From Gentiana macrophylla (Eukaryota; Streptophyta; Magnoliopsida; Gentianales; Gentianaceae): a stretch of 64,000 nucleotides of DNA. The translations under genes were made by a program, and so were the position numbers. This document shows, in pieces, positions 3,224 through 51,494 of the stretch (its first letter is position 1; every line of letters starts with the position of its first letter). The stretch is from positions 32,120 through 96,119 of the forward strand of contig JAOBSW010000939.1 in NCBI GenBank assembly GCA_026214975.1. Reading direction: 5' to 3'. The notes beneath the pieces were generated by a model. The model was given only the letters and a program-made list of their open reading frames with translations. It made no database searches and was not told where the DNA came from.

Positions 3224-5441
3224 TGTAACACCCCGAATTTTCAGAAAGGGTAAAATGGTAATTGGGTGTGTGTACTATGACCTAATTACTATTTAACCTA
3301 TTTATTTAATTAAAAAGGATTTAATTAATAGGATTTAGTTATTTATTTTTTATGAATTTTAATTAATGGGTATAAAATGGAACCATTACCTAAATTACTA
3401 TTAGTTTGTACACGGCAATTATTTCTTTCTGCAAAATTGGAGAGGCCTTATCAAAAAAAAAAAAAAAAAAATTGGAGAGGCAACGCTGTACAAAGGAAAA
3501 AAAAGAAGGTCGGACGCTGTTTTCCAATTTCGGGGTTTAACGGTTGATTTTCGGTGCAAACCATAGTAGAAGAAATTGATCACCGCGAGGAGACGATCGT
3601 TTCGATACTAGCCATTCTTTTTTTCGGTAAGTTTTCCTTTTTAGCCCTAAATCTAGATCCGTTTATGTTCTTGAGATATACCTGCATTTTTATGGATTAG
3701 AAAGGTTGCCTAATCGTAGTAATGGTTAAATATCGTAGGTGAATCGTAGAAAGGTTTGGTGTTGAGGATTTCAAGCTTTTTACAATCCTTTGTTTTCGTT
3801 TTTGCTCGCAAAAGATCAAAGGTAAGGGGGTGTTCTTAAACGAATTTTGTGTGTGTTCAATCGTATTTAACTATGTGTTTAATTATTGATTTTTACTATT
3901 TATCCTTATTTTTATTTGTCGGTAAATCACCATTGTCGAAGACCGAATCCTGTTGCTGCATTGCTATGTGTCGTATGTATGTGCTGCAGCCTGCAGTATA
4001 TATGCTTGTGCAGCTGAAGAAGTAAACAAAATATTAAAAAAAAAAAGTAGAGGAACCGTGCAGGGCAAGTGCGAAAAAAAAATAATAATATAAAAAATAA
4101 TAAAAATGAATCAAGCATTGGTCAGGTAAAATAAAAAAGAAACGAATATATATATATATTTATATATATATATATATATATATATATATAGATATATATA
4201 TATATATATGCATTCTCTTTTCAGGGAAAAAAAAAGGGGTTGTTGTTATGTTGATTTAATAGATATTGTGTACGGTAAAAGTGTATTATATAATTTGGTG
4301 CTTTTACGTGTATTACACGATACGATATGGTTTGTATGTTCTTATAGAACATTAAATGTTAATTGACAATGTCTAATATCGATTTCTCGTAGCCTTGGTA
4401 TCAAATCGCACCACAACCGAGACCCTCGTGGGGAGAAAGGTGGGAGCGGAAGGAAGGCGTTGTTTAGGCCTTGTGGGACCTTGACTCGATGAGTCATTGA
4501 TCCTTTTACAATGTGCTAGATAGTATAATTAGTTGTCTAGGACTAGAAGTCCCTAAGAAGCCTTTTATGTGAATGAACCAGGTGGTTAGAACTTAACTCG
4601 TAAATACATATGTGGTTGTCTAAAAGCTAAAACGTCAATATCATTAGTAAGGCACGTTTCTAAATCGAAGCATGGGAATCTTGCAACCCTTTTGAGTTAT
4701 GTGTCAAGGGACAACGTGTAACTTCCCACATGGAGACCTAAGTCCATGCCCCCTTGAGAGGTGCTTAATATGTCTCGGTGCATTCTCACCATGCACAGTG
4801 TCCTTTGATTTTGGTGTAACAAATTTATGTGCGTGAGGTTATACTATGTGATCTAGTAGAGGGTGAGTGTGATCTCATTACAACCTATGTGGTAGTGTTT
4901 GTAGCTATTATCATGTTGTATGTTATACATATGTACATATATCATTTAACCGTTTCTTCTACCCTTTACTAAGTACGTAAGTACTTACCCCTCTTCTCTA
5001 TTTTGTTCCCACCCCGAGAAGGTGGTTGACAGGATGATGATGATTTTGGTTATGACGATGGAGTTGATAGAGTTGACGCTTGAGCTTTAAAGTTACGATG
5101 ACTTGGACATTTATCTTATGCAATTTTAGTCATTCAGTTTTGAGACATAGACTTAGTACCGTTTCCGTTTCATTTGGGATGTAATGAGTCAAACAACATT
5201 TATTTCGTTGTTTTGTCGTTTCGCTTTTCTTAGAGACGTAGATTTTGGGACTTCTTTGATCCTTTTGATTGTCGTTTGACATTCTTTCCGAGTAAGCTTT
5301 TAGATTTAATTTATTCCGCTTTTACTCTGATTGATTGTGAGAGGCTTATGTATATATTAATTTTGATTTATTAAAAGTTAATATATGCATGCCGGGCGTT
5401 CGTGACGGATAAGTACTCGGTATCCGGAACGGGGCGTCACA
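3224..5441 (+). repeat. 5' LTR of element A
   Basis: This 2218-bp LTR matches 9952-10659 plus 19096-20570. By eye the pair is nearly identical apart from a 30-40-bp A-tract insertion near 3446-3475, the (TA)n length and clustered changes at CTG/CAG sites. It ends in GGGGCGTCACA and the primer-binding site follows three bases later. Confidence 0.9.
4146..4209. repeat. (TA)n microsatellite in 5' LTR of A
   Basis: About 64 bp of TA dinucleotides with two interruptions (TTT and G). The same site in the 3' LTR (19268-19345) is longer and uninterrupted. Confidence 0.95.
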
Positions 5442-5443
5442 GT

Positions 5444-5454
5444 TGGTATCAGAG
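5444..5454 (+). promoter_or_regulatory. Primer-binding site of element A
   Basis: TGGTATCAGAG begins two bases after the 5' LTR and is complementary to the 3' end of initiator Met tRNA, the usual primer of plant chromoviruses. It fixes the plus-strand orientation of A. Confidence 0.9.
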
Positions 5455-50160: not shown

Positions 50161-50175
50161 TCCCGCAACGGCGCC
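50161..50175 (-). promoter_or_regulatory. Primer-binding site between the twin LTRs
   Basis: TCCCGCAACGGCGCC on the plus strand, reading GGCGCCGTTGCGGGA on the minus strand, seven bases from copy 2. It resembles the TGGCGCCGTTGCCGGG site of Athila/Tat elements. Confidence 0.75.
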
Positions 50176-50182
50176 TAAAATT

Positions 50183-51494
50183 TGTGGGTGTCAAACCACC
50201 AAAGATAAATTTCCTACTTCCTATAACGAGTATATGGTGAGCAGGATCGCTCCCACAGGAACGGTGGATTTATTTCTCTTAAAATCGATAAAAGATAGGA
50301 TTTTGGTGTTATAAACTAATAACTAATAAAACTAAAAACGATGAAAATAAGTAAAACAAAGGTTCCAGCTTAAATTCATTATATCCACCTCGATTTACTC
50401 AATCGATCTCTCGATGCACATATGCCTCGTTAATTCATTGATAAATCGTTATAGTTACCGCACGCGCTAAGTAACCAATCTCTCCTAATTTTGGTAATCG
50501 TGACGCGTCACTAATTACCATCTAATCGAAAAGACACCCCTAGACACGGTCATAGGAGTTTGGTGTTCCGGCAAAGACTACAACTGAGAGACCCGACTCA
50601 ATATTAACACACACGCTGGTTAATTTTAATTTGATTATTCATCTTTATGATAGCGGATTTTCCCAAACATGCGAACCGAAAAACTCATATCATGTGCTAC
50701 TTTTATGAAAATCACAAACGATTATGGATTTTCTATTCCAATTCAGCGCATTTATTCAATGATTAAATTACTTATCTCGCTAAAATAACCAACCTAACCA
50801 TTAATCGTAGAGACAATCAAATCAAAAGATGAATAAATACCAACGAATAAAATGAGGAATAAGACTCAATTTGATCTCACAGCTTGCATCAATCGAGGCT
50901 TCAATAATAAATTAACCTAAAAGAAAATAAATTAGAAACTCACCATAAAAATTGATTGATCCAAAATATCATGTTGAATTCATAAAACAAATCAAAAGAA
51001 AAAGCTACCGGCACAGGTGAGTGAGCCGCTGCCGTCCTGATGATATCCTCCTTCAAAACCTAAGTAATTGTTTATTTACTGAATGAATAATCAGTGGCCA
51101 CGCCACTTTTTATTCTTTTTAATAATTTTCCTAAAATGAAATATTAAAATAATGGAGAAATTTAAAGTCAAATAATTATCCACCAATAAGAATCAAGATA
51201 AACATTAATGATCACCAATAAGATGAGAGCCTTGCAAACTTCCAAATTTGATCAACGCTGGGTTGCAAAGATATAAGTTTAATGGTATGATCATACCATT
51301 TAACCATTTTCATTCTCAGTCAAATCTTTTATAATCAGTTCTTCATTCCATGTCACACATAATAAAAACACTCTTCCAAAGCTTATTTTCATCAAATCTG
51401 CAAAACAACACCAAACACATCATAAAAGCGCATAGCTCTATAGAAAATAATCTATAAAATGCAATGAAATGCCAATAATTTATTTATCCCATCA
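50183..51494 (-). repeat. Twin-LTR copy 2
   Basis: 1312 bp, the partner of copy 1. The segment 50968-51090 is unlike copy 1 except for short anchors such as GTGGCCACGCC. Confidence 0.88.

Follow-up and report, generated by a model that had tools for sequence, protein, structure and literature searches.

Probable consensus base-calling errors at CTG/CAG sites between partner copies of transposons in a Gentiana macrophylla contig

Partner copies of transposons in the window

The stretch of DNA analysed here (the window; 64,000 nucleotides of contig JAOBSW010000939.1, assembly GCA_026214975.1, from Gentiana macrophylla) carries nested long terminal repeat (LTR) elements, with element A (10663-19095) lying inside the 3' LTR of element N (3224-20570), as well as a further LTR element (B), a tandem repeat of two copies (the twin), two Copia copies and a small element. 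Our subject is the differences between partner copies of these elements, which cluster at CTG and its complement CAG and in part recur as the same replacement. The copies are as follows, with the strand where one was assigned.

3224-5441: LTR 1 of element N, sharing 94.5% identity with the split 3' LTR
9952-10666: LTR 2 of element N, the part preceding the nested A
19096-20570: LTR 2 of element N, the part following the nested A
10663-12916: LTR 1 of element A (match limits), 95.7% identical to LTR 2
16815-19095: LTR 2 of element A, partner of 10663-12916
25835-27582: LTR 1 of element B, 91.7% identical to LTR 2
31048-32802: LTR 2 of element B, partner of 25835-27582
48845-50146: twin tandem repeat, copy 1, 85.1% identical to copy 2
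50184-51482: twin tandem repeat, copy 2
36510-42152, + strand: Copia copy 1, with RVT_2 and other pol domains, a further test pair, 75.5% identical to copy 2
53965-59587, - strand: Copia copy 2, partner of Copia copy 1
42706-43020 and 47377-47690: LTRs (315 bp) of the small element, 98.7% identical

LTR 1 of A seems to begin with TG at 10660, just before its match limit. A preliminary description of the sequence had spoken of four unrelated elements and illustrated the differences with eight strings, each of which does occur once on the + strand, no more than 4 bases from where it had been placed. As to the elements themselves, the statement holds for A, B and N; the twin, however, gives weak support and could not be shown to consist of LTRs, TG..CA ends not being seen at the match limits of its copies, and A and N have in common a diverged inverted stretch (about 160-270 bases, 71-73% identity). 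The small element is young and almost without CTG/CAG (0 in one LTR, 1 in the other), so that its pair permits no test of clustering.

Clustering at CTG/CAG and recurrent products

Differences between partners were classed as single-base changes, as pure indels or as multi-base blocks, long blocks having been excluded beforehand (5 in A, B and N together, namely 1, 1 and 3, and 11 in Copia). With expected values taken from random relocation of blocks, and binomial p values that are nominal, 41 of the 51 multi-base blocks in A, B and N touch CTG/CAG against 7.8 expected (p 9e-25): 7 of 13 in A (0.5 expected), 27 of 29 in B (6.6) and 7 of 9 in N (0.7). The twin follows with 13 of 38 (4.9 expected; p 6e-4) and the Copia pair with 116 of 296 (58.8 expected; p 2e-14), and CAG/CTG ranks top of the 32 trinucleotide classes by z in all five of these pairs. 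Consistent with this, a conservation count pooled over A, B, the two pieces of N, the twin and the small pair, from which occurrences adjoining gaps of 10 or more columns were excluded, finds CAG/CTG not conserved at 97 of 207 occurrences versus 13.5% for all trinucleotides (odds ratio 5.9, the highest of 32 classes; the p value of 1e-31 is nominal because overlapping trinucleotides are not independent). The CHH-type trinucleotide CAA/TTG stays at background (12.7%). Taken pair by pair, CAG/CTG ranks first for non-conservation in A and N, second in the twin (after AGC/GCT) and fourth in B, behind the CG-bearing classes CCG/CGG, CGA/TCG and CGC/GCG. The earlier claim that partner LTRs differ mainly at CTG/CAG is thus borne out, the differences not being spread evenly over trinucleotide contexts: A, B and N show strong clustering and the twin weak clustering, and the Copia pair, which had not been named, shows it as well. 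Both partners are affected: of 40 blocks from A, B and N, copy 1 is the richer in CTG/CAG for 23 and copy 2 for 17. Single-base differences are enriched at CTG/CAG as well (19 of 71, 5.9 expected), and in element A pure indels (23) outnumber single-base changes (9).

Some of the blocks repeat the same few replacements; three of the differing sites may serve as examples.

11642-11652, + strand: GGTGCTGAGCC in LTR 1 of A, against GGTCTTTGAGCC at 17788 (TGCTG to TCTTTG)
5252-5262, + strand: TTCTTTGATCC in LTR 1 of N, against TTGCTGATCC at 20382 (TGCTG to TCTTTG)
25949-25963, + strand: AACTGATCTTCAGTT in LTR 1 of B, against AACCGATCTTCGATT at 31156

The change of TGCTG to TCTTTG accounts for 2 of 4 changed TGCTG in A and for all 3 in N (5 of 7 together), none of these events lying inside the inverted stretch common to both; it is found once more at the junction of A with N, and at least once in Copia, among the 14 of 19 changed sites listed. 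No conserved TGCTG is left in A or in N. ACTGA turns into ATCGA at several places in B and once each in N and Copia, and into ACCGA in B and N; ACTGT to ATTTGT is seen once in A and once in B, and ACTGGT to ATCGT once in the twin and once in Copia. Some sites with such CTG/CAG contexts are intact in both copies.

Where one copy is without CTG, that copy has gained CG in 18 and lost it in 2 of the 40 blocks of A, B and N; for B the gains and losses are 16 and 1 of 26, and for Copia 32 and 3 of 106. For the other trinucleotides pooled, the corresponding figures are 102 and 65 of 327 (A, B and N) and 391 and 261 of 2498 (Copia). TCG/CGA itself numbers 39 in LTR 2 of B versus 20 in LTR 1. In A, B and N, CG is likewise gained by the copy without TCA/TGA (18 to 0 of 22) or without ACT/AGT (15 to 0 of 25); for the most part these are presumably the ACTGA events again. 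The twin shows 2 gains and 1 loss in 12 blocks. Gain of CpG as the sole rule was rejected, as B and Copia fit it and A and N do not; a methyl signal moved to CpG can hence be at most part of the story, since A, N and the twin do not fit.

As for composition, no trinucleotide of the window is as depleted as CTG/CAG (observed over expected 0.66, the next lowest 0.85). In element A the ratio is 0.38 for CTG/CAG and 0.69 for CpG. Deamination alone is expected to deplete CpG at least as much as CTG/CAG, so this order is the reverse of what it would leave behind and supports a calling error; Copia copy 1 shows the usual order (CTG/CAG 0.73, CpG 0.19). Of the words expected as products of the errors, CAAAG/CTTTG is in excess over the window against an order-1 Markov expectation (282 versus 196, mostly from 32803-64000), as is ATCGA (132 versus 94.5), and ATTTG, which the change of ACTGT to ATTTGT would predict, is not (277 versus 301).

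Standards of truth outside the partner comparison

Which of two differing forms is the altered one can be read at the insertion junction of A. On its 3' side A is followed by the target-site duplication ATTGC (19096-19100); LTR 1 of N, the partner without the insertion, reads GCATTGCTATG at the target site, near 3960. The partner LTR of A reads TGTGGACG, from which we assume TGTGACG as the start of the LTR; on that assumption ATTGC and then TG would be expected at the 5' junction, the insertion itself having created the word TGCTG. Instead the junction reads ATTCTTTG, with TCTTTG over the boundary of duplication and LTR (10656-10661, + strand), which is the very product that TGCTG gives elsewhere. 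The target-site duplications of N are identical (TCTTT), and those of B (GTTCA and GTTCC) differ without a CTG being involved.

A second standard comes from primer-binding sites. TGGTATC is found at 15 places, 6 of which adjoin an LTR end and are presumed primer-binding sites; 1 of these has the usual word, 3 are altered exactly at CAG (A, B and the small element), and those of N and Copia copy 2 differ outside CAG.

16797-16807, - strand: presumed primer-binding site of A, TGGTATCGAGC, against the usual TGGTATCAGAGC
31034-31045, - strand: presumed primer-binding site of B, TGGTATCGGAGC
47365-47376, - strand: presumed primer-binding site of the small element, TGGTATCGGAGC
37926-37937, + strand: the usual word TGGTATCAGAGC in Copia copy 1, an internal control

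We take TGGTATCAGAGC to be the usual primer-binding word. Among the matches listed for the two words (30 of 34 papers), it occurs mainly in papers on plant retroelements and plant viruses; the CGG form turns up, again among the matches listed, in 6 papers on unrelated topics, of which 5 are bacterial.

Protein relatives provide the third standard, at one Copia site: near 41040, copy 1 has CAAAG where relatives and the sister copy fit a CAG form. A codon-level direction over all affected sites was given up, because both Copia copies are too decayed for a count and the 113 Copia relatives cover only a portion of each. The open frame 28679-29782 of B matched no Pfam family, and none of 3773 candidates was a relative at E 0.001. 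Together, target-site duplication, primer-binding sites and this one Copia site support, at the level of sequence, an error of calling or consensus.

Some features of the same elements may be added. N looks to have inserted into an endogenous caulimovirid, with TCTTT as its target-site duplication: caulimovirid-like domains flank it at 280-3281 and 20728-22761 (both - strand), one flank with RNase H and reverse transcriptase matches (some under the cut-off) and a coat domain, the other with DUF7746, DUF7588 and a movement protein. Inside B, an open region (27735-29782, - strand) holds three frames that overlap or abut, and a Pfam scan of two of these three pieces matched no family; the longest piece is without relatives at E 0.001. 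Self-complementary runs, which are TA repeats where read, lie at 23147-23276, 19258-19362, 18211-18302 and 4135-4222; where such a run falls within an LTR of A or N, its length is unequal between partners.

Explanations weighed and known errors compared

In all, we consider it very probable that the clustered multi-base differences arose mainly as consensus errors of base calling at CWG (CTG/CAG) sites, with CHG methylation as the most likely route. Most of the multi-base differences between the LTRs of A, B and N would then be absent from the plant's own DNA. Their likely source would be native DNA assembled from nanopore reads, with a basecaller untrained on 5-methylcytosine in the plant CHG context. 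A methylated CWG would then alter the current and be called as a similar sequence known to the model, with local context biasing the product (ATCGA or ACCGA for ACTGA, TCTTTG for TGCTG, ATTTGT for ACTGT, ATCGT for ACTGGT). As each copy is affected at only some sites, LTRs that are equal in the plant would appear different. We infer the nanopore platform from the type of error and from the indel excess in A (unlike B and N); methylation is suggested by the sequence context, and a gap in training would fit with both. An error at modified cytosines had been proposed in the preliminary description, and it is this part of it that the recurrent multi-base, length-changing replacements and the three outside standards support best, with methylation as the probable link.

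Deamination of methylated cytosines after insertion would, by contrast, turn CTG into TTG or CTA in the CHG context and CCG into CTG in CpG, and could even yield CTG against TCG if a different cytosine of one CCG was hit in each LTR, a double hit that the preliminary description had overlooked in stating that deamination does not explain the changes. That statement holds for the multi-base and length-changing differences and only in part for the rest, since CTG/CCG is a single CpG-type transition and CTG/TTG and CTG/CTA fit CHG. Indeed, aligned pairs include 10 CTG/TTG, 3 CTG/CTA and 6 CCG/CTG in B, and 17 CTG/TTG, 18 CTG/CTA, 12 CTA/TTG and 12 CCG/CCA in Copia (some of which may lie within larger blocks), so that 13 pairs in B and 35 in Copia are as CHG deamination predicts, and the enrichment of single-base differences at CTG/CAG points the same way. 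The double hit, however, appears too rare, and here it is only counting that suggests so: CTG/TCG occurs 7 times in B versus about 0.75 predicted (Poisson tail 1e-5; computed from CCG/CTG 6, CCG/TCG 1 and CCG/CCG 4) and 6 times in Copia versus about 0.4 (3e-6), and the sister classes CTG/CCA and TCG/CCA are both absent from B, with 2 and 0 cases in Copia. In Copia, swaps of TCT and CTT (11) are more frequent than these CTG/TCG swaps (6), though there are only 22 TCG, 6 of which are involved. CpG symmetry predicts equal CCG/CTG and CCG/CCA, and the ratio is 6:1 in B, though 6:12 in Copia. Single symmetric C-to-T or G-to-A transitions agree with part of the single-base changes and do not describe the multi-base, length-changing blocks; neither the change of TGCTG to TCTTTG nor the altered target-site duplication is within their reach. 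Length-changing products thus exclude deamination as the sole cause, which we rate as very unlikely, while true CHG and CpG deamination is compatible with a second contribution, adding CTG/TTG, CTG/CTA and some CTG/CCG differences.

Two further accounts share parts of the evidence. A weakness of basecaller or polisher at CTG/CAG k-mers that is independent of methylation could produce the signature by k-mer confusion alone; 1-base indels in homopolymers of at least 3 are frequent (9 of 18 in A, 7 of 14 in B, 5 of 5 in N), and telomere repeats are miscalled as repeats with a similar current profile, as passages of PMC9414165 describe. The affected trinucleotide, though, is the symmetric CWG methylation context, with CHH-type CAA/TTG at background. 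CTG/CAG is moreover common in human and bacterial training DNA, so that we think this account unlikely. A real mutational or repair process, rewriting CTG/CAG by multi-base replacement in silenced transposons, has in its favour that all test pairs are repeats a plant would be expected to silence. The TCTTTG product in unrelated elements and over an insertion junction is nevertheless hard to obtain by repair, as are CAG changes in primer-binding sites and changes in both partner copies. We know of no repair process of this kind and regard it as extremely unlikely.

Several observations sit uneasily with a calling error at methylated CWG and weigh against it. In the pooled conservation count 110 of the 207 CTG/CAG occurrences are intact, support from the twin is weak, and the Copia copies are old, so that decay and error are mixed there. 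The indel excess is confined to A (B has 14 indels versus 43 single-base changes, N 8 versus 19), and B, the clearest case of the error pattern, has undepleted CTG/CAG (observed over expected 0.98). One context can lead to several products: changed ACTGA in B (14 of 19 listed) becomes ATCGA, ACCGA, AAGCCCGA, ATTGA and others, and TGCTG also becomes TCCTG and TGTG in A and TGCTTG in B. CG gain is rare in A and N (2 gained, 1 lost of 14), ungapped CTG/TCG swaps are limited to B (7) and Copia (6) with none in A, N or the twin, and the double-hit prediction is built on counts as low as 1.

If methylated CWG is indeed misread, the differences between the paired ends of several elements would be largely misreads, and the apparent age and damage of these elements probably in part an assembly artefact. 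LTR divergence in such assemblies would overstate insertion age, transposon genes would seem more damaged than they really are, counts of CTG/CAG and maps of CHG methylation would be biased where that methylation is high, and structure-based annotation could overlook target-site duplications as well as primer-binding sites. The recurrent words given above offer a read-free test for other plant assemblies, and the finding bears on the dating and annotating of plant transposons rather than on biology. A more tentative extension, which we would not yet favour, sees the assembly as a readable trace of CHG methylation: a model trained on 5-methylcytosine only in CpG might render a methylated CWG as one of a set of fixed words, CpG-bearing or other, whose density between LTR partners could then map CHG methylation and date the basecaller with nothing but the finished sequence to go on.

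In the context of known systems, what we describe is an artefact of a known kind, not plant biology, in a setting for which we found no report: among titles and openings of abstracts, CHG-linked basecalling errors in plants did not appear, which is no proof of their absence. Decay of LTRs by deamination in plants shares with our case a mutable CHG context at CTG/CAG, and differs in giving single transitions, without one-step swaps or insertions. Closer may be nanopore errors in Listeria, which, in the passages of Chiou et al. (2023, PMC10687267) on this point, centre on GCAGC/GCTGC and GCTGG and come from untrained modifications; the CWG core of the motif and the lack of training are alike, whereas bacterial modification systems are at work there and a plant here, with several contexts flanking CTG/CAG and multi-base replacements that change length. 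Guppy, according to a passage of PMC7501810, was not trained on native plant DNA. The ambiguous positions of Klebsiella, for which PCR-based sequencing was tried as a remedy, are likewise systematic, motif-linked and ascribed to methylation in the part of PMC11610573 concerned, but are mainly choices between A and G or C and T around RACG/CGTY, unlike the multi-base replacements here. Miscalled telomeres (Tan et al. 2022, PMC9414165), finally, resemble our sites in their fixed multi-base replacements, some of them length-changing, and in being tied to the current profile, with (GCTGCT)n and (AACGGC)n predicted to have a common one; as far as the relevant passages go, they are ascribed to similarity of current, not to methylation, and concern tandem repeats as opposed to the dispersed sites described here.

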